A stretch of DNA of 64,000 bases. It comes from Aquimarina megaterium XH134 (GTDB taxonomy: Bacteria > Bacteroidota > Bacteroidia > Flavobacteriales > Flavobacteriaceae). How positions within the stretch are numbered: position 1 is the first letter of the stretch; each line of letters starts with the position of its first letter. Of the stretch, positions 16,599 to 29,145 are shown in pieces. A program made the position numbers and the translations under genes. The notes under the pieces are model-generated. The model did not search any database. It saw only the letters and a program-made list of their open reading frames with translations, and was not told the origin of the DNA. The stretch lies in assembly GCF_000520975.1 (NCBI RefSeq), contig NZ_JACB01000006.1, forward strand, positions 310,001-374,000, written 5' to 3'.

Positions 16599-16621
16599 CG
16601 ACATAGTGATAAAAGTATATT

Positions 16622-17053
16622 ATGAACCACATCAATAAAATAGAACACCTGGGTATTGCAGTCAAAGATATCGAGCAAGCAAATACATTATACGAGAAAC
16701 TTTTGGGAGTTGCTCCTTATAAGCAAGAGGCCGTAGAAAGCGAAGCTGTAATCACTTCTTTTTTTAAGGTAGGAGATAGTAAAATAGAATTACTGGCCAG
16801 TACCCGAGAGGATGGACCCATCGGAAAATTTATTGCCAAAAAAGGAGAAGGTATTCATCACATCGCTTTTGATGTCGATAATATCGAATTAGAACTGGAT
16901 CGATTAGAAAAAGAAGGGTTTCAATTAATCAATAAGGTACCTAAACCTGGCGCTGATAATAAATTAGTTGCTTTTTTACATCCTAAAAGTACAAATGGGG
17001 TCTTAATAGAGTTATGCCAGGAAAAACCTATTGATCAGGATATTACAAAATAA
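16622..17053 (+). CDS. mce: methylmalonyl-CoA epimerase
   Basis: This 143-residue glyoxalase/VOC-fold protein has the metal-binding elements expected for the family: IEHLGIAV (His near residue 9), GIHHIAFDV (His near 81) and VLIELCQ (Glu near 132). It interconverts the D and L epimers of methylmalonyl-CoA, needed for propionyl-CoA metabolism with methylmalonyl-CoA mutase, which is not in the window. It is divergent from rbfA with only 54 bp between the two starts. Confidence 0.93.
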   Translation: MNHINKIEHLGIAVKDIEQANTLYEKLLGVAPYKQEAVESEAVITSFFKVGDSKIELLASTREDGPIGKFIAKKGEGIHHIAFDVDNIELELDRLEKEGFQLINKVPKPGADNKLVAFLHPKSTNGVLIELCQEKPIDQDITK

Positions 17054-17153
17054 ATTTTATCGTTTTTATAGCTCTTTTTTCCTTTTTTAAAGAAGAATCA
17101 AAGTCTTTATACGGCTTAAGAATAAAAGACAATTAAAATAATAGAAAAAAATG

Positions 17154-17184
17154 TTGGCGCGTTTATATCAAATCCTTAAATTTG
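17154..17184 (+). promoter_or_regulatory. promoter of the CAU tRNA gene
   Basis: TTG at 17154-17156 and TAAATTTG at 17177-17184 are separated by 20 bp, which fits the Bacteroidota consensus. The predicted transcript start is a few bases upstream of the mature tRNA 5' end. Confidence 0.65.
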
Positions 17185-17196
17185 CCCTCCGTTTTA

Positions 17197-17270
17197 GGTC
17201 CCATAGCTCAGCTGGTTAGAGCACCTGACTCATAATCAGGGGGTCCTTGGTTCGAGCCCAAGTGGGACCA
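17197..17270 (+). tRNA. tRNA with CAU anticodon (Met elongator or Ile2)
   Basis: A full cloverleaf can be drawn: acceptor GGTCCCA/TGGGACC, D-arm GCTCAGCTGGTTAGAGC, anticodon arm CCTGA-CTCATAA-TCAGG, variable GGGTC, T-arm CTTGG-TTCGAGC-CCAAG, discriminator A. It is 74 nt. The next three bases are CCT, so CCA is not fully encoded. Anticodon CAU is shared by elongator Met and lysidine-modified Ile2 tRNAs; I cannot separate them by eye. Confidence 0.95.
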
Positions 17271-17277
17271 CCTAGTT

Positions 17278-17313
17278 AAAAAGCTGTTTCTTGTATTAGA
17301 AACAGCTTTTTTT
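17278..17313 (+). terminator. terminator after the tRNA
   Basis: Arms 17278-17290 (AAAAAGCTGTTTC) and 17299-17311 (GAAACAGCTTTTT) pair over 13 bp with an 8-base loop and end in a T run. It lies 8 bp after the tRNA. Confidence 0.9.
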
Positions 17314-17363
17314 GTTCACTCAGGATACTACATCGTTATTTTAATCCAATTTCGATATCAAAA

Positions 17364-18152
17364 TCACATTACACTAATTTCATCTCCCACAGCAATAGTA
17401 TAATCTTTGCTATCAATAAGCTTAAGATATCTTCCAAACCAGATTTTTCGCTCTGATAATCGATATTGTGATAAGGTTTTTAAAGGTTCTTCACCTTTTT
17501 CTCCCGTTTCTTGATTTACCGTCGTTACTGTACACCGAGCACATGATTTGGTGATTTCGAAAGTAGTCTCATTAATTTTAATCTTTTTCCATTGATCTTC
17601 AATAAACGGGCTTCCTCCTGCAAAGACAATATTGGGTCTAAATCTGTTCATTTTAATAGGAGAAGGCAACTTACTATTTAAATCATCCAAAGAACTATCT
17701 CCTATAATCAAGTACTGAGCACCATCCTGAAAAAGAATTCGTGCCTCATTATTTTGCTTAACCCATCTTTTTTCGGTACTCGATTGCCGAACCAGGTATA
17801 CTTGTTTTCCTAAAAGGTCCGAAAACCATTCATTCACCACCTGTTCTTCTTTTATAGCCTCTACTTTTTCTTTAAAAACAGAAACCAAAATTGGTTCTTT
17901 TAACGTTGGATTCTCTAGCTTAATCTCAATAGTGCTTTCTTTATAGGTAACCAATAATGAATCCTGTGATAATGCTACCTGAAACAATGCCAATTTAGGT
18001 TCTTCTCGTTGGGTAATATGTTTTCCGTTTTTATCGGCCAGCATCCAATACCGGTCATACTCAAAACCTGTTTCGGATAAAGTAGCACTTTGTAATTCAA
18101 TTCTGCCCAGTGATTTAACCGGATACACATATAATTCTGAGATTTTTAGCAT
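17364..18152 (-). CDS. MOSC domain protein with MOSC N-terminal beta-barrel
   Basis: This 262-residue protein has an N-terminal domain opening with ISELYVYPVKSLG and the DRYWMLADKNG motif, then a MOSC domain with RFRPNIVF and the Cys-containing KSCARCTVTTVNQETG (about residues 190-205). The domain is that of molybdenum-cofactor sulfurase C-terminal regions and of the mARC reductases, and typically binds or transfers sulfur bound to molybdopterin. The cytosolic function here is unknown. It is followed on the same strand upstream by the EamA transporter gene. Confidence 0.85.
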   Translation of the reverse strand: MLKISELYVYPVKSLGRIELQSATLSETGFEYDRYWMLADKNGKHITQREEPKLALFQVALSQDSLLVTYKESTIEIKLENPTLKEPILVSVFKEKVEAIKEEQVVNEWFSDLLGKQVYLVRQSSTEKRWVKQNNEARILFQDGAQYLIIGDSSLDDLNSKLPSPIKMNRFRPNIVFAGGSPFIEDQWKKIKINETTFEITKSCARCTVTTVNQETGEKGEEPLKTLSQYRLSERKIWFGRYLKLIDSKDYTIAVGDEISVM

Positions 18153-18210
18153 CTTTTTGCTTTTAATATTTGTTGTCTATCGATTTAGAAACAGTATTAT
18201 TTTGTAAAGT

Positions 18211-19104
18211 TCAGCTTTTCTTTTTAGTAAACCCAAATAATAACAGGCCAATAATTACCACACCTCCTCCTATTAGTTGCTCAGCATACAACGTTTCCCC
18301 AAAAGGAAATGCAAGTAACACCGTAAAAAACGGAATAAGATTCATAAACAAAGTCGAGGTTGTTGCTCCCAATTTAACGACACAGAAATAAAATGCAGTA
18401 TATGCGATTCCGGTTCCTAGTATTCCCATAAATAAGATACTACTCCAAAAAGATATATCGGCAGGAACATCGGTTGTTATAAATTCTGGTAGTGAAAAAA
18501 CCGCAAACAAAACAAAGGCCATGAGCGAAGTAATCGTGGTCATCACAACAGCATCTACATGAGGAAGGTATTTACTTACAATGACCTGAGAAAGCGAAAA
18601 TACAATAGCCATACCCATGATATAAACATCTCCAATTTCGAACTGCAATTCTGCCAGCTTCCCAAAATCTCCTTTTACCAAAATAATGGCCACTCCAAAA
18701 AAGCTAATCGCAATAGCAATCCATTGTATTAATTTCACTTTTTTTCTTTGCAATAAAAAAGTGAAAACAGCAGTAATTGCCGGGCTAGTTGCAATAATAA
18801 GAGATCCATTTACAGCACTGGTAGTTTTTAGGCCTAGATTAAAAAAGTATATGGTTAAAAAGATTCCGAAAAAGGAAGTAAGAAACATATACCACCATTC
18901 TTTTGCAGAAAATCTGAGTTTGAATAATGAATTACCAAACCTTATATACACAAGAAGAAATAACGAGAGAACTCCAAAGAAAAATCGCAAAGCAGCCACA
19001 CTTACAGGAGAATAAAACTCTAAAGTTATTTTTACCACATGAAAATTAGCTGCCCAAAAAAGCATGGTTAGTATTAAAAACAGAAACGTAATTATTTTAG
19101 TCAT
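18211..19104 (-). CDS. EamA/DMT-family inner-membrane exporter
   Basis: This 297-residue protein has about ten hydrophobic helices in two repeats of five, the EamA arrangement. Typical elements are FWAANFHVVKI in helix 1 and LGTGIAYTAFYFCVVKLGA in the second repeat. DMT carriers export amino acids, sugars or metabolites. It shares its strand with the ABM-like gene 66 bp upstream and faces away from the CGNR-led cluster, so it could export the substrate or product of that cluster. That link is inference from position only. Confidence 0.88.
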   Translation of the reverse strand: MTKIITFLFLILTMLFWAANFHVVKITLEFYSPVSVAALRFFFGVLSLFLLVYIRFGNSLFKLRFSAKEWWYMFLTSFFGIFLTIYFFNLGLKTTSAVNGSLIIATSPAITAVFTFLLQRKKVKLIQWIAIAISFFGVAIILVKGDFGKLAELQFEIGDVYIMGMAIVFSLSQVIVSKYLPHVDAVVMTTITSLMAFVLFAVFSLPEFITTDVPADISFWSSILFMGILGTGIAYTAFYFCVVKLGATTSTLFMNLIPFFTVLLAFPFGETLYAEQLIGGGVVIIGLLLFGFTKKKS

Positions 19105-19170
19105 TATAGATATATATTATTTATGGTTCGGTTCATTAAGAAGTTTTTTAATCTGAAATCATCCTTTATT

Positions 19171-19491
19171 TTAAAAAACAAACGTTTCAAAATGTTGCAC
19201 TTCTTCTTCAAATTCAAGAAGAAAATCCTTATCTCTATCATAATATTTCGCTTTGGCATAGTCTTCTCCAGCGAAAGTTTTAATACTCTCATAATCTTTC
19301 CATTTGGTCACTGTCCATAAATGGCAGATATCATCTTCAAATCTTCTTAAAATTTCTACACCTAGTATTCCATCAACAGATTTATAATCTGCAACACCAC
19401 TTTCTATTAAGTATCGCAAATATTCCTCGGCATCTTCGGCATTAATTTTCCCATGCCATTTTCTTGTAATTACACTTGATTTATAATTCAT
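19171..19491 (-). CDS. antibiotic biosynthesis monooxygenase (ABM)-like small enzyme
   Basis: Starting at the ATG at 19491 it is 106 residues (MNYKSSVI...). A longer ORF to 19545 runs through the promoter and was rejected. The pattern is that of a ferredoxin-like ABM/dimeric alpha-beta barrel protein: TRKWHGKINAEDAEEYLRYL, an EILRRFEDDICHLWTVTKW strand pair, and AGEDYAKAKYYDRD. Members act as small monooxygenases, haem-degrading enzymes or isomerases; no substrate can be named. It is divergent from the CGNR regulator gene and is a likely target of it. Confidence 0.7.
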   Translation of the reverse strand: MNYKSSVITRKWHGKINAEDAEEYLRYLIESGVADYKSVDGILGVEILRRFEDDICHLWTVTKWKDYESIKTFAGEDYAKAKYYDRDKDFLLEFEEEVQHFETFVF

Positions 19492-19516
19492 ACTACTAAA
19501 ATTAATTACACTGGTG

Positions 19517-19545
19517 CAAATATAAGATAATATTTTTACTACCAA
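19517..19545 (-). promoter_or_regulatory. promoter of the ABM-like gene
   Basis: On the minus strand TTG (19545-19543) is followed after 18 bp by TATATTTG (19524-19517) and then CACC. Both boxes match the Bacteroidota consensus. The leader would be about 15-20 bases. Confidence 0.7.
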
Positions 19546-19548
19546 AAC

Positions 19549-19579
19549 TTGTTTTACTGGTTATAATTATTTTACTTTG
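19549..19579 (+). promoter_or_regulatory. possible promoter of the CGNR regulator gene, leaderless
   Basis: TTG at 19549-19551 and TACTTTG at 19573-19579 are 21 bp apart. The second box has one base fewer between TA and TTTG than the consensus. It continues CACC and abuts the ATG at 19584, so the mRNA would be leaderless. It overlaps the oppositely directed ABM promoter region. Confidence 0.4.
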
Positions 19580-19583
19580 CACC

Positions 19584-20174
19584 ATGAATAATGTAGAACA
19601 TATACAAAACAGCCTTTTAGACGGAGGAAATCTATCTCTCAATTTTATCAATACGATTAAAGATAGGCTGGTTGCAGACCCTATAGACTACCTTACCGGG
19701 AAAGAGGAATGGATTGCCTGGTTAAAACACGTTGATATTTTAGAAAATGAAACATCAAACTTTGATGAAGTTAGTTTTAATCTAAAGGAAGTTATAAGGA
19801 AAAGAGAATTTTTGCATCGTGTATTTCAAGGACTTGTTTTTCAAAGAGAAATCAAAGAAAAAGATCTTAAATGTTTTGACACACTTTTACAAAAAATCAG
19901 AAGATCCACTAAAATTTTTGTAGTAGACAATAAGCCTCAAGAACACTTGGAGATAGACCCAAATGATCTAAATAGCTATATCTTAAAAATTGGAAAAGCA
20001 GCTCACGAACTATTGATGTCTGAAGAAATAGACCGAGTAAAAGAGTGTGGCAATTGCGGATGGATTTACTTTGATTCTAGTAAAAACAGATGTAGAAAAT
20101 GGTGCAATATGGACACTTGTGGTAACGAGGTAAAAGCCAGAAAGTATTATGAAAGTAAAAAAAATAAAGTATAA
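19584..20174 (+). CDS. CGNR zinc-finger (ABATE domain) transcriptional regulator
   Basis: This 196-residue protein has an N-terminal ABATE-like region (GGNLSLNFINTIKDRL, about 15-30) and a C-terminal CGNR zinc finger from about residue 152: CGNCGWIYFDSSKNRCRKWC then MDTCGNEVKARKYY. The four Cys ligands are present; the name-giving CGNR reads CGNE. The family is DNA-binding and often controls nearby operons in response to a small ligand. It is the first gene of the plus-strand cluster that runs to 26120 and is divergent from the ABM-like gene, so it probably regulates one or both. Confidence 0.85.
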   Translation: MNNVEHIQNSLLDGGNLSLNFINTIKDRLVADPIDYLTGKEEWIAWLKHVDILENETSNFDEVSFNLKEVIRKREFLHRVFQGLVFQREIKEKDLKCFDTLLQKIRRSTKIFVVDNKPQEHLEIDPNDLNSYILKIGKAAHELLMSEEIDRVKECGNCGWIYFDSSKNRCRKWCNMDTCGNEVKARKYYESKKNKV

Positions 20175-20186
20175 AACTATATAAAA

Positions 20187-20576
20187 ATGAAAAACAGAAA
20201 AAATGTTTCATCTGGTAGCCCCTGGGAAGATATCGTAGGGTATTCTAGAGCCGTAAAAGTAGGGAATATCATCGAGGTTTCTGGTACTACTGCTACCGGT
20301 AAAGATGGTAATATTATCGGTATAGACGATCCTTATCTTCAGACCAAAACAATTATAGAAACTGCTAAAAATGTTCTAGAAGAGATGGGGTATAGCTTAG
20401 ACAATGTTATACGAACAAGAATTTATACAACCGATATATCTCAATGGGAAGCTATAGGAAAAGCACATGGAGAATATTTTGGCACCATAAAACCCACTAC
20501 CGCAATGGTAGAAATAGCCAAACTAATTAATCCTGATATGCTAGTAGAAATAGAATTTACTGCTATAGTGGATTAA
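20187..20576 (+). CDS. RidA/YjgF family protein lacking the catalytic Arg
   Basis: This 129-residue protein begins 12 bp after the CGNR gene. It has the RidA core VGNIIEVSGTTATGKDG, VIRTRIYTTDISQWEAIG and MLVEIEFTAIVD. In active imine deaminases such as E. coli RidA an Arg in the segment PARSCVEVARL is essential. Here the aligned segment is PTTAMVEIAKL, with Thr in its place. By that comparison this copy should not hydrolyse 2-aminoacrylate-type imines in the standard way and may bind a different ligand. Its cluster mate near 24.6 kb keeps the Arg. Confidence 0.88.
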   Translation: MKNRKNVSSGSPWEDIVGYSRAVKVGNIIEVSGTTATGKDGNIIGIDDPYLQTKTIIETAKNVLEEMGYSLDNVIRTRIYTTDISQWEAIGKAHGEYFGTIKPTTAMVEIAKLINPDMLVEIEFTAIVD

Positions 20577-20627
20577 TTATAGGAAAATGAATTAAAAATT
20601 ATTACTAACCTTTAAATACTTATAGTT

Positions 20628-20771
20628 ATGAATTGTAATGTAGAATGTTTACCAAATGATTGTTCAGAAGTAAGAGAAAGGAGTACTATCAAAATTTCTA
20701 CTCAATCTATTACTGATTGGTTAAAAACCTTTAGTATCCCGGGAGCCGAAGATGCCTCGAGGTTTAAATAA
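20628..20771 (+). CDS. small Cys-containing ORF (47 aa), unknown
   Basis: ATG at 20628, TAA at 20769-20771. The peptide begins MNCNVECLPNDCSEV, with Cys at positions 3, 7 and 12, and continues with a polar helix-like stretch (QSITDWLKTF) and a charged end (ASRFK). It lies 51 bp after one cluster gene and 161 bp before the next on the same strand. Cys spacing x3 and x4 near the N-terminus could bind metal. I do not recognise it. No other gene is visible in 20577-20932; translation is unproven. Confidence 0.4.
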   Translation: MNCNVECLPNDCSEVRERSTIKISTQSITDWLKTFSIPGAEDASRFK

Positions 20772-20932
20772 CATCTATTTCAATAATCTGTATGATATGA
20801 AATAGACCACACAAATCATCTTAATTTATAAAAAAAGAGATCAAATAGATGGTCAAAAATTAGAGATCATGAATCTGCCGAGTCATTATATTTTAGAGAT
20901 CCTGATAAAAAATTTAACCGAAACAAGTATTT

Positions 20933-21715
20933 ATGAAAGATAAAATCTACAGCTCAAAAACTCTATTATACAGGTCAGAAATGATGGCAGCATACAAGAA
21001 AGAGATCTCACTACCATATCTGTCGGATTTTGATATAGTATTAACTTCAGATCAAGCCTATCAGATTCAGAAACATTTGGTGCAGGAAGCATCAGAAAAT
21101 GATGCTATTATTGCTTACGAAGCAGGTATGACTTCTAAAGGTTCTCAGAAAAAATTTGGTGCAACTCAACCACTTGCGGCAGCACGATTTGCTTCTGGAC
21201 TTTATTTCGACACTACAGAAATTAAACTCTCTGAATTTCAAAATCCAATCCTCGAAACAGAAATCGGTTACCGAATGAAATCAGCAATCACAAAAAAAGT
21301 AACCTTAGGTAGCGTAAAAGAATTGGTAAAAGAAATTATACCTATGATCGAAATCCCGGATATTAAACATCCAGATATGTCCAGGTTAACTCAGAAAGAT
21401 ATGATAGCTACCAATGGTGCTGGTGCAGTAATTATCCAAGGCAAACCAATGAATCCCAATGTAGATATTAATGAAGAAATCATAACCCTAGCATTGGGTG
21501 AAGAAGAAATTAGCAGAGGAAAAGGAAGTGACGCTATGGGAGATCAATGGACATCATTAGTATGGTTAATCAATAAGACCTTGGATCAAGGATACCCAAT
21601 TACTTCAGAACATACCCTTATGACTGGTACAGTTGGACAAATAGTACCACTAACCAAAGGTTCTTATACTGCTTTATACGGATCTCTGGGAATGATCAAG
21701 TTTATAGTAGTCTAG
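20933..21715 (+). CDS. 2-keto-4-pentenoate hydratase / FAH-fold enzyme
   Basis: This 260-residue protein resembles the MhpD/4-oxalocrotonate decarboxylase group of the fumarylacetoacetase fold: YEAGMTSKGSQKKFG near residue 62, the metal-binding element ILETEIGYRM near 103, a DMIATNGAGAVIIQG strand and a C-terminal LGMIKFIVV. The family adds water to, or decarboxylates, unsaturated 2-keto acids with a divalent metal in the cytosol. No aromatic ring-cleavage enzyme is nearby, so the usual pathway does not apply. The substrate here is unknown. It is 31 bp upstream of the aminotransferase gene. Confidence 0.78.
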   Translation: MKDKIYSSKTLLYRSEMMAAYKKEISLPYLSDFDIVLTSDQAYQIQKHLVQEASENDAIIAYEAGMTSKGSQKKFGATQPLAAARFASGLYFDTTEIKLSEFQNPILETEIGYRMKSAITKKVTLGSVKELVKEIIPMIEIPDIKHPDMSRLTQKDMIATNGAGAVIIQGKPMNPNVDINEEIITLALGEEEISRGKGSDAMGDQWTSLVWLINKTLDQGYPITSEHTLMTGTVGQIVPLTKGSYTALYGSLGMIKFIVV

Positions 21716-21746
21716 ACTAGACTAAAGAATTTCTAACACATAAAAA

Positions 21747-22850
21747 ATGAACTGGGAAAAGTATCGTCAGGAATTTCCTGCATTAAACACCTATACATAT
21801 CTAAATACTGCGGGAGGATGTCCCTTGGCAACATCGGTAAAAAATGCTGGTATTCAGTTTTATAAAGACATGGAAAAGCATGGGGATACTCCTTGGGACA
21901 AATGGATGGTTAAGATAGAGGAAACGCGTCAAAAATTAGCTCTGTCTATAAATGCAGATGTAGATGAAGTTGCATTTCTTTCGACAGCTACACAGGCCGC
22001 TAATTTGGTTTCCCGAATGCTTCCAAAAGGAGGAGTACTTATGTTACATAAAGAGTTTCCATCTACTAGTTTACCCTGGCTACACCAAAACTATCCGGTA
22101 ACTTTTGTTGACTTCCCAAATGATCAGGATGAATTATATACCAATTTAAAAAAAGCAATACAACCAGATACTCATTATCTAGTTACAAGCCACACCCATT
22201 ACATGACTGGTTTTAGGCATGACCTAAAAGAACTTTCGGCATTTTGCAGAGAGCATAATCTAAAACTTATACTAGACGCCACACAATCTTTTGGCTCTAC
22301 ACCTATTGATGTAAAAAGCGATTGTATTGATATTCTATGGTTTAGCGGATACAAATATGCACTTGCAGGATATGGAATTGCCGCTTTATATATCAACCAT
22401 TCTCTTCTAAACGATATGGAAATTTCAGAGGTTGGTTGGCGAAGTGCCGAGGATCATGGAGAGATGTGGCATGACCGTATAGCCATAAAAAAGGGAGCAG
22501 CTGCACTAGAAACAGGGCACCCACCTTTTGCCGGAATCTTTGCCCTAAATCAAGGTCTTAATATTCTAACTGAAATATCTATAGAAGCTATTCATAAGCG
22601 TTTAACAGAACTTACTGATTATTTGGTATCCTGTTTGGTTAAAAACGAAATGGAAATAACCTCACCAACATCAGAAAAATATCGATCTCCAATTGTTATA
22701 ATAAAGGTAAAAGATGCCAATCAAATTGAAAAGAAGCTTATACAGCATAATATATTTATAGGAAAACACAGCAACCGATTAAGAGTTTCTTTGAATTTCT
22801 ATACTACTCAAAAAGACATCGATCACTTTATAGCGATTTTAAAAAAATAA
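21747..22850 (+). CDS. class V aminotransferase-fold PLP enzyme
   Basis: This 367-residue PLP enzyme has YLNTAGGCP near the N-terminus, a cofactor-contacting STATQAANLV (about residue 80), TSHTHYMTGF and DATQSFGSTP (Asp for the pyridine nitrogen, about 182), and WFSGYKYALAGYG with the Schiff-base Lys (about 206). It lacks the catalytic Cys loop of cysteine desulfurases, so transamination, racemisation or a lyase reaction is more likely. Closest in feel are the isopenicillin-N epimerase-like proteins. The next gene starts 4 bp after its stop, so the two are translationally coupled. Confidence 0.85.
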   Translation: MNWEKYRQEFPALNTYTYLNTAGGCPLATSVKNAGIQFYKDMEKHGDTPWDKWMVKIEETRQKLALSINADVDEVAFLSTATQAANLVSRMLPKGGVLMLHKEFPSTSLPWLHQNYPVTFVDFPNDQDELYTNLKKAIQPDTHYLVTSHTHYMTGFRHDLKELSAFCREHNLKLILDATQSFGSTPIDVKSDCIDILWFSGYKYALAGYGIAALYINHSLLNDMEISEVGWRSAEDHGEMWHDRIAIKKGAAALETGHPPFAGIFALNQGLNILTEISIEAIHKRLTELTDYLVSCLVKNEMEITSPTSEKYRSPIVIIKVKDANQIEKKLIQHNIFIGKHSNRLRVSLNFYTTQKDIDHFIAILKK

Positions 22851-22854
22851 GAGC

Positions 22855-23757
22855 ATGAAAAAATTCACTGTATATCAAATAGATGCTTTCACCAAAGAAA
22901 AATTTAAAGGAAATCCTGCAGGAGTTGTAATTAACGCAACAGGATTAGATGATACTCAAATGCTGGCTATCGCACGAGAATTAAACAACTCTGAAACAGC
23001 ATTTATTTTTCCTTCTGATAGCAAAGACAATGATGGTGTTATACGATATTTTACACCTACAGTAGAGGTTCCTATTTGTGGTCATGCAACTATCGCTGCT
23101 ATGTATGCCAAAGCCATATCCGAAAATCTTAATTCTTGCGTATTAAGAATGAAAACCAAAGTAGGTGTTTTACCATTTACTATCTATAAAAAAAATGATG
23201 ATTATAAAATAGAAATGACACAGGGCCCTATCAGTTTTGAGTCACCTTTTAGTAAAGAAATTCAACATCAAATTATAGCTGCACTTGGACTAAAAAGTAC
23301 CGATATAGATGAAAAATGTCCTATCCAAATTGCTTCTACAGGGCATTCTAAAGTAATGATAGGCATCAAAAACAATAAAACACTTAATACCCTTAAGCCC
23401 AATAATAGTAGACTTAGTGAACTCAGTAAAATAATTGGATGTAATGGGTATTATGTTTTTACGTTTGATTCTACCGATAAGGATTGTTTGATCGATGGGC
23501 GCATGTTTGCTCCGGCTATAGGTATAAATGAAGACCCCGTTACTGGTAATGCTAATGGTCCTTTAGGCGCTTATTTGATTCATCATGAATTGGTTTCATA
23601 TAATGGTAAAGAATTTACTTTTAAAATCAAACAAGGTGAAAAAATGAAGCGTACAGGTTATATGAATGTTCATGTGACCTGTGCATATAATCAACCAAAA
23701 CAAGTACAAATTACAGGCAATGCAGTCGTTGTATTTAAAACCACAATAACCATATGA
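22855..23757 (+). CDS. PhzF family isomerase/epimerase, copy 1
   Basis: This 300-residue protein has the PhzF pattern: YQIDAFTKEKFKGNPAGVV at the start, the catalytic-Glu segment ELNNSETAFIF (about residue 48), RYFTPTVEVPICGHAT, and EDPVTGNANGPLGAYL near 225. PhzF proteins isomerise or epimerise small metabolites by acid-base catalysis with this Glu; the best known makes a phenazine precursor, but most have unknown substrates. It overlaps the second PhzF gene by 4 bp (ATGA). Confidence 0.9.
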   Translation: MKKFTVYQIDAFTKEKFKGNPAGVVINATGLDDTQMLAIARELNNSETAFIFPSDSKDNDGVIRYFTPTVEVPICGHATIAAMYAKAISENLNSCVLRMKTKVGVLPFTIYKKNDDYKIEMTQGPISFESPFSKEIQHQIIAALGLKSTDIDEKCPIQIASTGHSKVMIGIKNNKTLNTLKPNNSRLSELSKIIGCNGYYVFTFDSTDKDCLIDGRMFAPAIGINEDPVTGNANGPLGAYLIHHELVSYNGKEFTFKIKQGEKMKRTGYMNVHVTCAYNQPKQVQITGNAVVVFKTTITI

Positions 23758-24593
23758 AAACAACAAAAATTCAAAAAATAGCGGCTTTCTCTTATAACAA
23801 TACAGGAGGAAATCCTGCAGGTGTTGTAATAACAGATAAAATGCCGAAAGAAGAAGAAATGTTTAGCATCGCTAAAGAAGTGGGATTCTCTGAAACTGCT
23901 TTTTTACATCCCAAAGATGACGGGTGGCGTATTCGGTATTTTTCTCCTGAAATAGAAGTTGATTTTTGTGGTCATGCTACCATTGCCACAGGAGCAGGTT
24001 TGGGGCAAAGTCATGGAGAAGGAACATACAAACTGTTTTTAAACAATGGAGAAATTAGTGTTGCCGTTAAAAAAACTACAGGAAAGGATTTTAAAGTAAC
24101 ATTGCAATCGCCCGAAACTTGGTCAAAACCAGCACCACAATCGGTTATAGATGATATTCTTAGTTTATTTAACCTTCCGGTTACGGCACTTCATACAGAT
24201 TTCCCGATTCGATATGCTTTTGCAGGAGCCAAACATCTTATTCTTGTTGTAAACGATCGAAAAACAATAGCCAATATGAAGTATGAATTCGAAAAGACCA
24301 AAACTCTTATGCTTAAAGAAGACCTGGTCACTATAAGTTTACTATGGTTAGACACCAATAATGTATTTCATTCCAGAAACGCATTTGCTTCAGGAGGAGT
24401 ATATGAAGATCCTGCTACAGGAGCTGCCGCTGCTGCCCTAGCGGGTTATTTGCGCGATATACATTGGAAAGGAAATAATAAATTCGAAATCATCCAGGGA
24501 GAAGATATGAGATCTCCATCACGACTAATGGTAGAATATACTTCCGTTATCGGATCTAGTGTAAAAATATCAGGAAGTACACGGAATATTTAG
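23754..24593 (+). CDS. PhzF family isomerase/epimerase, copy 2
   Basis: This 279-residue protein starts inside the last codons of the preceding PhzF gene. It carries NTGGNPAGVVI, EVGFSETAFLHP with the catalytic Glu, YFSPEIEVDFCGHATIATG and YEDPATGAAAAALAGYLRD. It differs strongly from copy 1 outside these motifs, so the pair is not a recent duplication. PhzF proteins work as two-domain folds or dimers; the coupled genes could form a heteromer or catalyse successive steps. Confidence 0.9.
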   Translation: MKTTKIQKIAAFSYNNTGGNPAGVVITDKMPKEEEMFSIAKEVGFSETAFLHPKDDGWRIRYFSPEIEVDFCGHATIATGAGLGQSHGEGTYKLFLNNGEISVAVKKTTGKDFKVTLQSPETWSKPAPQSVIDDILSLFNLPVTALHTDFPIRYAFAGAKHLILVVNDRKTIANMKYEFEKTKTLMLKEDLVTISLLWLDTNNVFHSRNAFASGGVYEDPATGAAAAALAGYLRDIHWKGNNKFEIIQGEDMRSPSRLMVEYTSVIGSSVKISGSTRNI

Positions 24594-24627
24594 ATAAAAT
24601 TTTGAACAACCGACTCAAATAAAAAAC

Positions 24628-25005
24628 ATGAAGACAAATGAAACTTTACACATACCCAAAAGTAATGGACACTATGCTATGTGGGTAGAACATAAAGGGA
24701 CTCTTTATTTAAGCGGACAATTACCGATACATCCAATTACCAAAGAAGTTCCTGTAGGTATTGAAGCACAAACAAAATTGCTACTACAGAATATAGAACT
24801 CACGCTAAAAGAAGCTGGAAGCAGTAAAAATCATATCATTAGAAATGAGATTTTTATTAATGATGTTGCCCATTGGCCAACAATAGACAAAGTATATGCT
24901 GATTTTTTTGGAGATTACAAACCCGCTCGAGCAGTGGTTGGCAATGCCGAACTACATCTCGGTTGCCTCATTGAAATCGTAACAACAGCAGCAATAATCG
25001 AATAA
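24628..25005 (+). CDS. RidA/YjgF family imine deaminase, Arg retained
   Basis: This 125-residue protein has GTLYLSGQLPIHPITKEVP near residue 23, HIIRNEIFINDVAHWPTI and the active-site segment KPARAVVGNAELHLG, which keeps the Arg equivalent to Arg105 of E. coli RidA. C-terminal LIEIVTTAAII is also typical. It should hydrolyse enamine or imine intermediates, such as those released by PLP enzymes, to keto acids and ammonia. It follows the second PhzF gene by 34 bp and precedes the M29 peptidase by 14 bp. Confidence 0.9.
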   Translation: MKTNETLHIPKSNGHYAMWVEHKGTLYLSGQLPIHPITKEVPVGIEAQTKLLLQNIELTLKEAGSSKNHIIRNEIFINDVAHWPTIDKVYADFFGDYKPARAVVGNAELHLGCLIEIVTTAAIIE

Positions 25006-25019
25006 TTAATACTAAAAAA

Positions 25020-26120
25020 ATGAATTCATCTATATTAAAAAAATACGCAGATCTATTGGTACATTACTCCCTTGATATACAACCAGGAGATAAATTATTT
25101 ATTCAAACTACAACACTTGCAGAACCATTAGTGCGAGAAGTTTTTAGAACTGCTATCAAAGCCGGAGCACATGTAGAATACCAATTGGAGTTTAGTGAAG
25201 CTCATAAAATTAAAATTGATAATTCTGAAGAAAAGCAATTAAATCAACCTCCTGTATTGTATGCGCATGCGATGGAGCATTTTGATGCTTATCTTAAAAT
25301 TATGGCTCCCCATAATCTTATCGAAAATCAAAATATAGATGCTCAAAAACAACGAAAGCATAAAGAGACTTTAAAACCAATAACAGAACATTATTATAAA
25401 AGAACCGCCAATGGCAGCTTAAAACGAACTTTGTGCTTATATCCAACACAAGCGGGTGCACAAATGGCAGGCATGTCACTAGAAGAATATTCACATTTTG
25501 TCTTTAATGCTTGCCATCTATTTGATGAAGACCCTAAAACATCCTGGCTGCACATACGAAAAGAACAACAAAATATTGTTGATTATTTAAACAAGGTAGA
25601 TAAGATACAGTATATCACCAAAGGAACCAACATACAGTTTAGTGTTAAAGGACGAAAATGGATAAACTCTGATGGACGAACAAATATGCCCAGCGGAGAA
25701 GTATTTACCGGACCAATTGAGGATAGCGTGAACGGAACAGTATATTTTAGTTTACCTTCTATCTTTGAAGGTCATATCGTAAAAGGAATTACACTAACGG
25801 TTAATGATGGTAAAATTATAGATTGGAAAGCAGAAGAAGGACAAGAATTATTAGACGACATATTTAAAGTTCCGGGAGCTAATTATTTTGGAGAAGTCGC
25901 TATCGGGACCAATTACAATATACAGCAAGCTACAAAAAACATCTTATTTGATGAAAAAATAGGAGGCACTATACATATGGCGGTAGGACAATCGTATTTT
26001 CAAACCGGTGCCAAAAACAAATCTATTATTCATTGGGATATGATTACAGATATGACACAAGGAGGCAAGATATTGGCAGATGGAAAATTAATCTATGAAA
26101 ATGGAAAATTTCTTATATAA
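25020..26120 (+). CDS. M29 family metallo-aminopeptidase
   Basis: This 366-residue protein resembles the AmpS/AmpT group. The two-metal site appears intact: SGEVFTGP (Glu, about 227), FGEVAIGTN (Glu, about 290), FDEKIGGTIHMAVG (Glu and His, about 311-318) and IHWDMI (His and Asp, about 338). It is shorter than classical M29 enzymes (about 410 residues). Members release N-terminal residues from short peptides in the cytosol. A distant relative, the NicX ring-opening dioxygenase, shares the fold, so a non-peptidase role is possible. It is the last gene of the cluster. Confidence 0.85.
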   Translation: MNSSILKKYADLLVHYSLDIQPGDKLFIQTTTLAEPLVREVFRTAIKAGAHVEYQLEFSEAHKIKIDNSEEKQLNQPPVLYAHAMEHFDAYLKIMAPHNLIENQNIDAQKQRKHKETLKPITEHYYKRTANGSLKRTLCLYPTQAGAQMAGMSLEEYSHFVFNACHLFDEDPKTSWLHIRKEQQNIVDYLNKVDKIQYITKGTNIQFSVKGRKWINSDGRTNMPSGEVFTGPIEDSVNGTVYFSLPSIFEGHIVKGITLTVNDGKIIDWKAEEGQELLDDIFKVPGANYFGEVAIGTNYNIQQATKNILFDEKIGGTIHMAVGQSYFQTGAKNKSIIHWDMITDMTQGGKILADGKLIYENGKFLI

Positions 26121-26369
26121 TACACAAACGATTGGCAAAATTAATCTTAAGTAATTTTTATTAATATTATATTCAATAAATTCTCTGGGATAAGCCGATT
26201 ATAATCAAATCTAAACATCATGTAAAAAGGGATATTTAACTTATATTGTTTCGGGTGAATGTTTCAAAAACAGGTATTAAATATTTTCTTTTGAGGAAAA
26301 CCCATAATCAGGCACTTCAATTAATATATACTATAGCACTTTTTTATTCACGTTTTAGAAGAAATAAAA

Positions 26370-26708
26370 CTATACCAACTTAATATCCTCTTTAAATAAC
26401 ATATGAATATATTCGGCATGCACTTCTGCATGGTGTTGATTTTCTAGGCAATGAAATAGTAGATGAATCAATCCATAATCACCCAAACTATCCCTATACT
26501 CATATCTGGCCTTATTTTTTACCCATAAAATAAAACAACATAAATGACCTATCTCCCCCAACTTTTGAGGATCTTTTAAGCATTCTCTAAATTCGTCTAA
26601 TGTCATATGAGCATATTCATCATACTTTTTTTTGCAAAAGTCATAATCAAAAGTATGCTTATACGATTGTAATTTTCGGTTTTGTATTTCGTAGTTAATA
26701 CCACTCAT
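26370..26708 (-). CDS. hypothetical protein (112 aa)
   Basis: I do not recognise this protein. It is rich in His, Tyr and charged residues (ENQHHAEVHAEYIH near the C-terminus, GHLCCFILWVKNKARYEYRD in the middle), looks mostly alpha-helical and soluble, and has no signal peptide. The His/Glu/Cys residues could bind metal. A well-formed minus-strand promoter overlapped by two dyads lies at 26889-26917, which would give it a leader of about 170 bases. It is convergent with the M29 gene. Confidence 0.6.
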   Translation of the reverse strand: MSGINYEIQNRKLQSYKHTFDYDFCKKKYDEYAHMTLDEFRECLKDPQKLGEIGHLCCFILWVKNKARYEYRDSLGDYGLIHLLFHCLENQHHAEVHAEYIHMLFKEDIKLV

Positions 26709-26871
26709 AACATAAGAGTAATTTACATCAGGTTAAGTATTCATATCCTCATAAATATACGATTTGAAGTTATCTCTGTTTTTACAAAACGCATGCCAGG
26801 ACTTTAAAAAATTAACCCAAAAAGCTTAAGTAAATCTTAAAATTTTAATTAATAGTTTATATTTTTATTTA

Positions 26872-26886
26872 TTGGAATAATTCCAA
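26872..26886. promoter_or_regulatory. operator-like dyad 1, TTGGAATAATTCCAA
   Basis: A perfect 15-bp dyad (7-bp arms, one central base). It covers the predicted start point of the minus-strand promoter at 26889-26917. It matches dyad 2 in every base except the centre. The regulator is unknown. Confidence 0.7.
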
Positions 26887-26888
26887 TA

Positions 26889-26917
26889 CAAAAATACAAA
26901 ATTTGGAATGATTCCAA
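26889..26917 (-). promoter_or_regulatory. minus-strand promoter between the dyads
   Basis: On the minus strand TTG (26917-26915) is followed after 18 bp by TATTTTTG (26896-26889), both matching the Bacteroidota consensus. The -33 TTG lies inside dyad 2 and the start point inside dyad 1. It points toward the hypothetical gene at 26370-26708. Confidence 0.65.
26903..26917. promoter_or_regulatory. operator-like dyad 2, TTGGAATGATTCCAA
   Basis: A perfect 15-bp dyad whose centre is 31 bp from that of dyad 1, about three helical turns, so two bound dimers would face the same side of the DNA. It contains the -33 TTG of the minus-strand promoter. Confidence 0.7.
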
Positions 26918-27084
26918 TAAAGATATTTCGTTTTTGTGCCTTAATTTTTCAACTTATTACCAGAAAAAGCAAAAATACAAAGGAGACAAACCAAGATGTA
27001 ACTTATTGTTTTACAGGTTTTTAAAACCAAACATTCATAAGTTTTGTTAATAAAACCTGATAAGTTTATTTTAAAAAATCAAAC
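26918..27084. other. AT-rich leader-like stretch, no gene seen
   Basis: Between the dyads and the first small plus-strand ORF nothing codes convincingly. A purine stretch CAAAGGAGACAAACC near 26980 looks like a ribosome site, but the ATG after it is followed at once by TAA. Together with 26709-26871, which is also empty, this forms an unusually long non-coding region. Confidence 0.35.
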
Positions 27085-27171
27085 ATGTCTATTAAATTTA
27101 CTCTTGAATTTGATACGATATGGTATGTTTTTTGGGGAAAGAACTACTATAACGAAAAATTGGGAAAATAA
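27085..27171 (+). CDS. very small ORF (28 aa)
   Basis: ATG at 27085, TAA at 27169. The peptide begins MSIKFTLEFDTIWYVFWGK and ends in a Tyr/Lys-rich tail. It is aromatic and amphipathic, with no recognised family. It sits 15 bp upstream of a 51-codon ORF on the same strand, so it could be a leader peptide or a small protein. Support is only the open frame and context. Confidence 0.25.
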   Translation: MSIKFTLEFDTIWYVFWGKNYYNEKLGK

Positions 27172-27186
27172 ATCAAATCTAGAATT

Positions 27187-27342
27187 ATGCAGTATAAAGT
27201 AATTGATGCAAAAAGCCAGTATTTTGGCAAAGTATTGGATTTCGAATCCTGCTCCACTTTAAGCGATCTGGGAGGAGTACTCTTAAAGATCGAAAGAAAC
27301 AGGGTTTCACTTTTTAAATTTAACGAAGTAGAACTGGTATAA
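27187..27342 (+). CDS. small protein (51 aa), unknown
   Basis: ATG at 27187, TAA at 27340. The sequence (MQYKVIDAKSQYFGKVLDF, then LGGVLLKIERNRVSLFKF and EVELV) alternates polar and hydrophobic residues like a small beta-barrel or SH3/PRC-like fold. This and the natural codon use make it look like a real gene. It is convergent with ribE, 69 bp away. I know no family for it. Confidence 0.55.
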   Translation: MQYKVIDAKSQYFGKVLDFESCSTLSDLGGVLLKIERNRVSLFKFNEVELV

Positions 27343-27411
27343 TTGCCATTCTACTTCTTTATATTTTCCTTACTTATTTTTACTACATCCTTAAGATGTT
27401 TATAAGTTAAG

Positions 27412-27999
27412 CTATCTTAGTTCTGTAATTCGTTTTACATATTTACCAATTACATCAAACTCGAGGTTAACAACACTTCCTTCTTTAAAAGTGTTAAAGT
27501 TTGTATGCTCATAAGTATATGGAATAATAGCAACACTAAATTCGTTCTTTTTAGAATTAACTACAGTCAAACTAACTCCATTAACCGTTACCGATCCTTT
27601 TTCTATAGTGATATTATTTAGTGAAGGATCATAATCAAAAGTAAAATACCAACTTCCATCAGCCTCTGTGATTGCTGTGCAAATTGCAGTTTGATCTACA
27701 TGTCCTTGTACAATATGCCCATCTAACCTATCACCTAATTTCATTCCTCTTTCCAGGTTTACTACGTCATCAACCACAAGGGTATTAAGATTAGTCTTAT
27801 CCAGCGTTTCTTTGATCGCCGTAACTGTATACATATCTTCATTAATAGATACCACCGTCAAACAAACCCCGTTATGCGCTATACTTTGATCGATTTTCAA
27901 TTCTGAAGTAAAATTCGCGCGTATAGTAATATCCAGATTTTCTTTATTAGTTTGTAAAGAAGTAACAATTCCTAATTCTTCGATGATTCCTGTAAACAT
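27412..27999 (-). CDS. ribE: riboflavin synthase, alpha chain
   Basis: This 195-residue protein begins MFTGIIEELG, the signature of riboflavin synthase, and has the duplicated barrel: SIAHNGVCLTV and GDRLDGHIVQGHVD in the first and second halves, GSVTVNGVSLTVV in the second. It dismutates two molecules of 6,7-dimethyl-8-ribityllumazine to riboflavin and a pyrimidine by-product in the cytosol. It is divergent from pdxA with 87 bp between the starts, so two cofactor genes share one control region. Confidence 0.96.
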   Translation of the reverse strand: MFTGIIEELGIVTSLQTNKENLDITIRANFTSELKIDQSIAHNGVCLTVVSINEDMYTVTAIKETLDKTNLNTLVVDDVVNLERGMKLGDRLDGHIVQGHVDQTAICTAITEADGSWYFTFDYDPSLNNITIEKGSVTVNGVSLTVVNSKKNEFSVAIIPYTYEHTNFNTFKEGSVVNLEFDVIGKYVKRITELR

Positions 28000-28086
28000 A
28001 AATGCGAATTATTTAATTAAATTTGTGACCTTGAAGTTTGAAGTCTGATTTTAGATTTCAAAAATACTGATAAAGTAGTTTATATA

Positions 28087-29145
28087 ATGAAGAAAGAAGA
28101 AAAAATAAGATTAGGGATTTCTATTGGTGATCTTAACGGAATAGGAAGTGAAGTCATCCTTAAAACTTTTGAAGATTCGCGAATGTTAGATTTTTGTACT
28201 CCGGTAATTTTTGCTTCGGTAAAAATTCTTTCTTTCTTAAAAAAACAATATAAAAGCAACATAAACCTTCATGGTATAGATAAGACATCTCAGATTCTGG
28301 ATGGTAAAATAAATGTTCTTAATGTTTGGAAAGAAGCCGTTAGTCTTAATTTTGGAAAAGAAGATGAAAAAGTAGGAAGCTATGCGATCAAATCACTTAA
28401 ATCTGCAACCGAAGCTTTAAAAAACAATCAAATTGATGTACTGGTTACCGCACCTATTAATAAACATAGTATTCAATCTAACGAATTTAAATTCCCAGGA
28501 CATACCGATTATCTGGATCAGGAGTTAGAAGGAAATAGTCTTATGTTTATGATCACCGATGATTTAAAAGTTGGATTACTTACCGATCATGTTGCTGTTA
28601 AGGATATAGCCGATACCATTACACCAGAATTGATTGAACAAAAAATAGATACTATTCATCATGCGCTTAAACAAGATTTTGGTATCTCAAAACCAAAAAT
28701 TGCAGTATTAGGAATTAATCCACATAGTGGAGACAACGGTGTAATTGGTAAAGAAGATGAAGATGTATTAAAGCCAACAATCCAAAAAATTAATGAATCT
28801 GGTAAATTAGTATACGGTCCCTACGCAGCAGATAGTTTTTTTGGTTCTAATAATTATAAAGCCTTTGATGCAATTGTAGCTTCATATCATGATCAGGGAT
28901 TAATTCCTTTTAAAACACTCTCTTTTGGCAAAGGAGTAAATTATACGGCAGGCCTACATAAAGTTCGTACTTCTCCAGATCATGGTACTGCTTTTGAAAT
29001 TGCAGGAAAAAACCTAGCCGATAATAGTTCATTTAAAGAAGCTGTTTTTGCGGCATTAAAAATTTTTAAAAATAGAAATGAATATAATGAATTAACTCAA
29101 AACCCTCTAAAAAAACAACCTCGTAAACCGCAAAATAAGTTATGA
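28087..29145 (+). CDS. pdxA: 4-hydroxythreonine-4-phosphate dehydrogenase
   Basis: This 352-residue protein has the PdxA pattern: SIGDLNGIGSEVILK at the N-terminus, TAPINKHSI and FPGHTDYL (first metal His near 140), GINPHSGDNG, and YHDQGLIPFKTLSFGKGVNYTAGL (second metal His near 272). It oxidises 4-phosphohydroxy-L-threonine for the DXP-dependent route to pyridoxal phosphate. The basic Lys/Arg/Pro-rich C-terminal tail (KKQPRKPQNKL) extends the core. The next gene starts 175 bp later from its own promoter. Confidence 0.95.
   Translation: MKKEEKIRLGISIGDLNGIGSEVILKTFEDSRMLDFCTPVIFASVKILSFLKKQYKSNINLHGIDKTSQILDGKINVLNVWKEAVSLNFGKEDEKVGSYAIKSLKSATEALKNNQIDVLVTAPINKHSIQSNEFKFPGHTDYLDQELEGNSLMFMITDDLKVGLLTDHVAVKDIADTITPELIEQKIDTIHHALKQDFGISKPKIAVLGINPHSGDNGVIGKEDEDVLKPTIQKINESGKLVYGPYAADSFFGSNNYKAFDAIVASYHDQGLIPFKTLSFGKGVNYTAGLHKVRTSPDHGTAFEIAGKNLADNSSFKEAVFAALKIFKNRNEYNELTQNPLKKQPRKPQNKL

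Follow-up and report, generated by a model that had tools for sequence, protein, structure and literature searches.

A study of MocR regulons, part of which was available to us, predicts a link between PhzF-like isomerases and DMT transporters, places CsdA-family desulfurases (class V pyridoxal 5′-phosphate (PLP) enzymes) and GloA lyases in the PdxQ regulons as well, and reports RidA in five MocR regulogs, without saying whether these coincide with the former (PMC5320631). As far as the accessible part of that source goes, the PhzF–DMT theme is the closest known likeness to the locus discussed here, a cluster of ten genes (positions 18211–26120) in a 64,000-nucleotide stretch of the Aquimarina megaterium XH134 genome (contig NZ_JACB01000006.1, positions 310,001 to 374,000), hereafter called the window. 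The cluster encodes an EamA/DMT-family transporter, a small ABM-like protein, a CGNR regulator, two Rid proteins (Rid1 and Rid2), a hydratase-like protein, a PLP enzyme, two PhzF proteins (PhzA and PhzB), and an M29 aminopeptidase. In contrast to the MocR-type regulons, its regulator is of the CGNR/ABATE type and not a MocR protein, which would combine a GntR-type helix-turn-helix (HTH) with an aminotransferase domain; moreover, the cluster adds the MhpD-like hydratase relative, the second PhzF, M29, and ABM. It also holds no pdx gene: pdxA (28087–29145) belongs to the flank, where it lies beside ribE also in genomes that have no cluster.

Other systems share single parts of the locus. PhzA matches Escherichia coli YddE (PDB 1qy9, listed as an uncharacterized isomerase) at E 4e-83 and exceeds the cut-off of the YddE-type isomerase model NF007625/PRK10281 (446.9 versus 386 bits). 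However, the gene set of YddE is a different one, and PhzB is a distant relative. In another genus of the Flavobacteriaceae (genome G414, locus L163), an EamA-domain open reading frame (ORF) overlaps an ABM-like ORF that is 55% identical to the ABM protein of the window, and the latter is divergent from a CGNR/ABATE gene (34–36% identity). Unlike our cluster, this 14-kb stretch gave no hydratase-like, PhzF, Rid, or M29 match. The EamA gene in G414 is assigned by its Pfam match only, and the window's EamA gives no tblastn match to it. EamA, ABM, and CGNR consequently occur in another genus without the rest, which runs counter to the original prediction, made for this stretch from its letters alone, that the families form one conserved set.

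The same prediction held that no described pathway contains this combination, and literature searches indeed found none; of these, the searches on Aquimarina, PhzF, and islands and on the PhzF family and YddE were judged by title, the former among the papers listed. No paper was found that joins the CGNR zinc finger to EamA, or peptidase M29 to PhzF. The parts and the PhzF–DMT pairing theme are already known, while the particular set and, in partly accessible sources on the hydratase lysine, an MhpD-like clade without this residue (see below) were not found described.

Layout of the cluster and favored interpretation

With a probability of about 0.5, we consider the locus to be a clade-restricted accessory metabolic island that occupies a variable hotspot in one small Aquimarina species group, is probably of horizontal origin, and is now eroding. 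The island would consist of two modules: module 1 (EamA, ABM, CGNR, and Rid1) and module 2 (the hydratase-like protein, PhzA, PhzB, Rid2, and M29, with the PLP enzyme as an optional member).

Families were assigned with Pfam and NCBIfam profile searches and with PDB matches. Together with the ORFs, these agree with the predicted genes, families, and order: all ten genes exist, look intact, and have the order and spacing originally given. EamA and ABM are encoded on the minus strand, the other eight genes on the plus strand with gaps of 12, 356, 31, 4, −4, 34, and 14 bp. The −4 value is the predicted ATGA overlap, which joins PhzA and PhzB. The statement that the gaps are mostly below 35 bp is correct for six of seven; nevertheless, it left unmentioned the 356-bp break (20577–20932, GC content 27.5%) that separates the two modules.

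Distribution among Aquimarina genomes and beyond

Positions 16600–28000 of the window were compared at the DNA level with 66 genomes of the genus, and the results hold among the matches listed; gene content was determined by tblastn on ten stretches from nine genomes. All ten genes are present in one of the 65 other genus genomes, Aquimarina sp. AU58 (L010; NZ_OMPD01000013.1, 343,948 bp). Three genomes (G747, G694, and G718) carry all cluster genes except the PLP gene. G707 has EamA, ABM, CGNR, Rid1, and PhzB only, G701 retains the 3′ part of M29 only (189 of 366 codons), and G705 has an EamA homologue (77%) and no other cluster gene. Within the stretches taken, G700 and G691 have flank genes only; G720, whose contig starts at the DUF gene, lies outside the count. 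Judged by eye among the matches listed, the mce flank is at least 93% identical in DNA to that of the window in AU58, G747, G694, G718, G707, and G701, and at most 83% in the others.

Beyond the genus the cluster genes become sparse. For M29 (E ≤ 1e-20) no match was found in the 396 other family genomes sampled, and the same is true of a close relative of the PLP enzyme, whose matches at E ≤ 1e-25, present in 44 of these genomes, reach 29% at best. Relatives of CGNR (E ≤ 1e-15; 30–36% identity) were found in 2 of 258 other family genomes. In a phylum sample of 246 other genomes, PhzB has relatives at E ≤ 1e-25 in two and M29 at E ≤ 1e-60 in five, the latter all in one other family (50–59% identity). 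By tblastn, the five M29 loci have no PhzF, Rid, or hydratase-like neighbor; one of them has a class V PLP match at 23%. The expectation that the ordered set would recur in other Flavobacteriia was not borne out: within the genomes searched, its order is not conserved beyond close relatives. As far as searched, only a few close relatives keep the set, which gives the impression of accessory genes more than of a new, conserved pathway.

Next to M29 in two genomes from this other Bacteroidota family lies a gene for a 955-aa protein (L165:3647–6514 and L166:3606–6473). The one scanned, from L165, is a fusion of APH, peptidase M23, and class III aminotransferase domains.

The PLP enzyme and its loss

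The PLP enzyme (21747–22850, plus strand; 367 aa) is a fold-type I (class V) protein with an Aminotran_5 score of 145 bits. Lys203, Asp177, and Gln180, which we take to be its functional residues, are present, and no HTH domain was matched. Its AlphaFold model (pLDDT, the predicted local confidence, of 91) has C-DES, a cyst(e)ine C-S lyase, and SufS as nearest folds, a result that indicates the general neighborhood only. In contrast to the desulfurases, the enzyme has no Cys at the catalytic position, since none of its four cysteines (25, 167, 193, and 296) aligns with the catalytic Cys of Nfs2. A role as a cysteine desulfurase of the SufS/IscS type was rejected for this reason.

A close match is found in 1 of the 65 other genus genomes (AU58, 93%). 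In a class-level sample, 5 of 295 genomes, including the genome of the window itself, give a match at E ≤ 1e-30, and the others are at 29–32%. Among proteins, the relatives stand at 97% and 78% (the latter P0002, from Pontimicrobium sp. SW4), then at 45% and below; the search with the hydratase-like protein returned no protein named from Pontimicrobium sp. SW4.

Of the five genomes in which the remaining cluster genes stand in order, three have no PLP gene. In two of these three, a 3′ stump of it is preserved in front of PhzA (60 bp at 88% identity, E 6e-15, in G747; 55 bp at 91%, E 1e-16, in G694). An ancestor therefore had the PLP gene, which has been lost in at least two genomes, and the core was kept without it. 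We also inspected the neighborhoods of PLP relatives at 80 loci from named genomes (63 with at least 10 kb; tblastn, E 0.01). None of the 79 loci besides AU58 has an adjoining Rid, PhzF, hydratase-like, or M29 gene. AU58 aside, the only cluster-gene match other than PLP was an ABM-like ORF at two Acidobacteria loci (L016 and L074; 28–29%).

These results bear on the original proposal of one pathway in which imines released by the PLP enzyme pass to the Rid proteins. The proposal is disfavored both by the absence of the enzyme from three of five carriers and by the 79 loci. In its full form, this alternative has M29 turn a peptide into amino acids, the PLP enzyme release an imine, Rid deaminate it, the hydratase and PhzF proteins hydrate and isomerize the product, and EamA export it, with the PLP-less species swapping in another enzyme or entry compound. 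The tight spacing, the order kept in five genomes, and purifying selection on all genes speak for such a coherent pathway, and the stumps show that the PLP gene once stood in the ancestral operon. Against this, the PLP gene is missing where the rest is retained, Rid1 is without its arginine and the hydratase-like protein without its lysine (see below), and no other examined locus joins these families. We regard a single pathway as a contender, but a rather unlikely one. What stands of the original interpretation is that the metabolic gene set is real and under selection; the case for a single conserved pathway is weaker.

Module 1: transporter, ABM-like protein, regulator, and Rid1

EamA (18211–19104, minus strand) matches PF00892 at 134.6 bits with two repeats and is likely an exporter; its ratio of nonsynonymous to synonymous substitution rates (dN/dS) is 0.03–0.12 against five relatives. 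The ABM-like protein (19171–19488, minus strand; 105 aa from the ATG) matches PF03992 below the cut-off (E 0.021, 15.4 bits). The CGNR zinc-finger/ABATE transcription regulator (19584–20174, plus strand) is supported by PF11706 (49 bits) and PF07336 (30 bits), and Rid1 follows at 20187–20576 on the same strand (PF01042, 97.5 bits; best PDB match 3i7t). G707 holds the module-1 genes while it is without most of module 2. This pattern, together with the EamA–ABM–CGNR group found without the rest in G414, leads us to read the cluster as two modules.

Rid1 has the motif KPTTAM, with Thr at the position equivalent to Arg105. According to the part of the Rid literature accessible to us, subfamilies without this arginine appear unable to hydrolyze imines (PMC4433059), and Rid1, being Arg-less, is not predicted to do so. 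Rid2 (24628–25005, plus strand; 125 aa; PF01042, 95.5 bits) retains the arginine in a PAR motif (KPARAV) and is predicted to be an imine/enamine deaminase. The assumption that the cluster's RidA proteins hydrolyze imines accordingly survives for Rid2 but not for Rid1, which has Thr in place of the essential Arg105. In G747, only residues 1–114 of the 125 in Rid2 align.

Module 2: the hydratase-like protein, the PhzF pair, and M29

The "hydratase" (20933–21715, plus strand) is a divergent member of the MhpD/HpaH superfamily. It matches no Pfam family over the cut-off, and its scores with four NCBIfam hydratase/decarboxylase models (52.7–72.3 bits) are far below theirs; in the PDB it matches MhpD at E 3e-17. 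Residues E108, E110, and E140 align with the metal-ligand glutamates of MhpD and are invariant in an alignment of six rows, so the protein shares these positions with the MhpD/HpcG/DmpH superfamily, to which it is related in sequence. The corresponding triad of HpcG is presumably E106, E108, and E139. Unlike MhpD and HpcG, which have Lys at the position, the protein has Glu63, and Glu is found in all eight clade sequences compared (the window, four relatives, and P0121–P0123). Lys occupies it in P0124 and P0125 and in paralogues of four genomes that correspond to a gene on contig C60 of the XH134 assembly. We take this residue to be the active-site lysine, Lys60 in HpcG, and its mechanistic role is likewise our assumption. 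A word-based search of 5.8 billion proteins returned five homologues at E ≤ 1e-15, with identities of 99, 87, 86, 36, and 34%; the next relatives outside the clade are those at 34–36%. A structure model (mean pLDDT 37.5, from six sequences) was not used. The original assignment of an activity on unsaturated 2-keto acids is disfavored by Glu63, given the Lys in MhpD, in HpcG, and in the genome's own DmpH/HpaH-type paralogue.

The C60 gene (C60:34872–35669; L184) encodes this DmpH/HpaH-type enzyme, with the usual Lys, and the product of the ORF adjoining it presumably resembles an HpaI-type aldolase. The paralogue matters for a further alternative, in which the cluster would serve an aromatic branch leading from tryptophan or kynurenine to 2-aminomuconate. 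Here the PLP enzyme would act like a kynureninase, Rid as aminomuconate deaminase, and the hydratase as oxalocrotonate decarboxylase. The PLP enzyme does match KYNU_C at 29.3 bits (cut-off 27), tryptophanase-subfamily genes lie beside PLP relatives at two of the six loci listed ORF by ORF (L015 and L024), and the Rid family, in the accessible part of the source, includes 2-aminomuconate deaminase (PMC4433059). The score of the PLP enzyme with the kynureninase equivalog of NCBIfam, however, is 63.3 bits against a cut-off of 246.4, the cluster's Pfam matches include no ring-cleaving family, and the DmpH/HpaH-type enzyme is already provided on C60. Moreover, a separate set on contig C35 has a kynureninase (467 bits), 3-HAO (272 bits), and a Rid of its own. 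In view of the separate C35 set and the C60 paralogue, the kynurenine/2-aminomuconate role was rejected, and we consider it very improbable. The C35 genes (L181:5521–13833, minus strand) form a kynurenine/3-hydroxyanthranilate-type cluster of kynureninase, an FAD hydroxylase (KMO-like), Rid, an IclR regulator, a muconic-semialdehyde-dehydrogenase-like protein, an SDR, 3-HAO, and an amidohydrolase.

PhzA (22855–23757, plus strand; PhzC-PhzF, 267 bits) and the divergent PhzB (23754–24593, plus strand; 184.6 bits) both exceed the PF02567 cut-off and contain the SETAF, CGHAT, and EDPxTG motifs, to which we ascribe catalytic roles. PhzB is the sole module-2 enzyme present in all six holders of module 1 (the window, AU58, G747, G694, G718, and G707). 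Its retention with module 1 fits the PhzF–DMT association predicted from MocR regulons in the part of that study available to us (PMC5320631). From the phenazine set phzA–G, only PhzF-family genes occur among the ten.

M29 (25020–26120, plus strand; 366 codons; PF02073, 291 bits) has the motifs GEVFTG, GEVAIG, HMAVG, and HWD of a Glu/His/Asp metal site, in which the residues that bind the metal are those we presume. Relatives of M29 include the 2,5-dihydroxypyridine dioxygenases. A function of the protein as a ring-cleaving enzyme found no support among its PDB matches at E ≤ 1, which are PepS, AmpS, and AmpT and nothing else.

Selection, origin, and the variable site

For every cluster gene, dN/dS against its orthologue (Nei-Gojobori, the window versus each carrier) is 0–0.21, and the cluster genes are therefore under purifying selection. 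The G707 values for PhzA (0.59) and Rid2 (0.26) are left out of this range, being matches to paralogues (28% and 35% identity). The core order is kept in five genomes over a dS of approximately 0.05–0.59 (0.94 in one PhzA comparison), a conservation that is more than chance. Against AU58, module 1 and module 2 differ in their evolution: dN is 0–0.005 for EamA, ABM, CGNR, and Rid1, and 0.008–0.031 in module 2 (0.017–0.031 for the hydratase-like protein, PLP, PhzA, PhzB, and Rid2, and 0.008 for M29). The corresponding dS is 0.05–0.06 for ABM, CGNR, and Rid1, 0.19 for EamA, and 0.15–0.25 for module 2. PhzA of G718 (L141:6516–7415) is far more divergent than its neighbors (78% identity, dS 0.94), which suggests allele replacement.

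The co-location of PhzF isomerases, a PLP enzyme, an exporter, and a regulator, in a locus where most module-2 proteins evolve faster than the flanking genes, could also be that of a specialized-metabolite cluster that makes and exports a modified amino acid. Such a cluster would be expected to show an assembly-line, ligase, or scaffold-building enzyme, and the ten genes include none; M29 and the Rid proteins, in our judgment, would suit breakdown better. A biosynthetic role is on these grounds quite improbable.

The cluster lies between mce and ribE/pdxA. By eye and among the matches listed, the distance between mce and ribE on one contig ranges in other species from about 0.2 to 75 kb. There are near-empty sites without the cluster in G726 (mce 0.6 kb from ribE) and G708 (1.5 kb). 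Other cargo is present as well. The site in G701 carries a DndC/DndD-like (or PbeC-like) pair of the DNA-phosphorothioation defense type between mce and ribE (L144:4497–7762), and in G694 a lanthionine-synthetase-C-like (LanC-like) protein is encoded next to the cluster (L140:2939–4156). The variable spacing, the near-empty sites, and the other cargo show that the site is variable, and a restricted distribution in a variable site, as seen here, is one mark of a horizontally acquired genomic island.

Such a site raises the question whether the ten genes are merely passengers, unrelated to one another, gathered in a hotspot and sharing nothing but promoters. The variability of the site (established partly by eye), the piecemeal loss in G707 and G701, and the EamA of G705 without other cluster genes can be read in this way. 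However, the overlapping PhzF pair, the presence of two Rid genes, the gaps of 4–34 bp, and the constant order are more operon-like, and we find a passenger collection unlikely.

Proposed role of the island and points against it

In the accessory island that we favor, module 1, with EamA and ABM divergent from CGNR and the Arg-less Rid1, would sense and export a small molecule, and module 2 would process amino or imino acids derived from peptides or amino acids. M29 may cleave a peptide or conjugate and so release an unusual amino acid, which the PhzF pair (by acid–base isomerization or epimerization) and the MhpD-like enzyme would rearrange. Rid2 could then deaminate the resulting enamine or imine, with CGNR sensing the substrate or product and EamA exporting it. 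The PLP enzyme would provide an optional entry step. In net effect, a non-standard amino acid would be salvaged or detoxified. The architecture, the distribution among the genomes searched, the selection, the loss of PLP in at least two genomes, and the states of the key residues are observed; the horizontal origin, all of the chemistry, the direction of transport, and the regulation are deduced.

Several observations weigh against the favored interpretation. The modules adjoin each other with unchanged order in every one of the five module-2 carriers, as would also suit one pathway, and the terminator scan called no terminator-like site in the 356-bp break (totals in the scans were 8 terminator-like sites versus 5.3 expected and 35 promoter-like sites versus 50.8 expected). 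The contrast in dN between the modules lies partly in dS because dS is lower from ABM to Rid1, and the constraint on M29 equals that on module 1. A third PhzF is encoded on contig C3, and the genome has seven Rid-family matches, two in the cluster and five further ones, so that no step need be unique to the cluster. The rarity of M29 is valid for the sampled relatives only, because the protein collection holds 7694 relatives at E ≤ 1e-30, thousands of them in metagenomes. Named relatives among the best 120 of the 7694 are A. spinulae (98%), then Bacteroidota such as Saprospiraceae (about 60%). The GC content of the cluster genes (31–38%) resembles the 33.8% of the window and thus does not point to recent transfer; since it is not atypical, the argument for a horizontal origin is the distribution. 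Neither an integrase nor any other mobility gene came to notice, though no search was aimed at them. In G718, a multiple alignment hints at a more decayed PLP stump, which BLAST does not support (13 bp, E 0.41).

A bolder proposal, put forward tentatively and with more doubt than belief, is that the Glu63 MhpD-like protein founds a new activity. With the two PhzF proteins, Rid, and M29 it would make up a hitherto undescribed route by which a non-standard amino acid is salvaged or detoxified, switched on by CGNR and drained by EamA, in which the PLP enzyme is optional and was discarded by close relatives. If the favored interpretation holds, the seven close genomes, with full (two), PLP-less (three), partial (one), and remnant (one) versions, constitute a natural deletion series, which would permit a direct test of the function of Arg-less Rid proteins and of PhzF-like isomerases, among them E. 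coli YddE, whose structure is solved. The locus also advises caution in deducing a pathway from co-location: most genomes that hold the rest do without the enzyme that seemed central.

Neighboring and intervening features

A pattern scan found a possible Bacteroidota-type promoter for ABM–EamA, TTG-N18-TAnnTTTG (19517–19545, minus strand), for which we assume the consensus. The call is weak because the pattern has 15 matches across both strands of the window. In the 356-bp break, a stretch near 20845–20930 resembles, in our reading, decayed coding sequence and has no Pfam match. A suspected similarity of stretches in this gap to malate synthase and VOC proteins was dropped as unconfirmed, since Pfam gave nothing over the cut-off.

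The MOSC-domain gene that adjoins the cluster (17364–18152) is complete in the window, G718, and G707, whereas AU58 and G747 retain only a remnant of its C-terminal part. The dN/dS values of 0.53 (AU58) and 0.57 (G747) are from these remnants, outside the cluster.

The break also contains a small ORF (20628–20771, plus strand; 47 codons) whose 47-aa product has three cysteines close to the N-terminus and matches no Pfam family over the cut-off. Its reading frame is uninterrupted and has identical ends in each of the six genomes compared. Differences occur in 14 of 15 genome pairs, and codon position 3 leads in 12 of these; in the remaining two (window–G707 and AU58–G707), position 2 draws level with position 3. 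This substitution pattern lends modest support to the ORF being a coding sequence.

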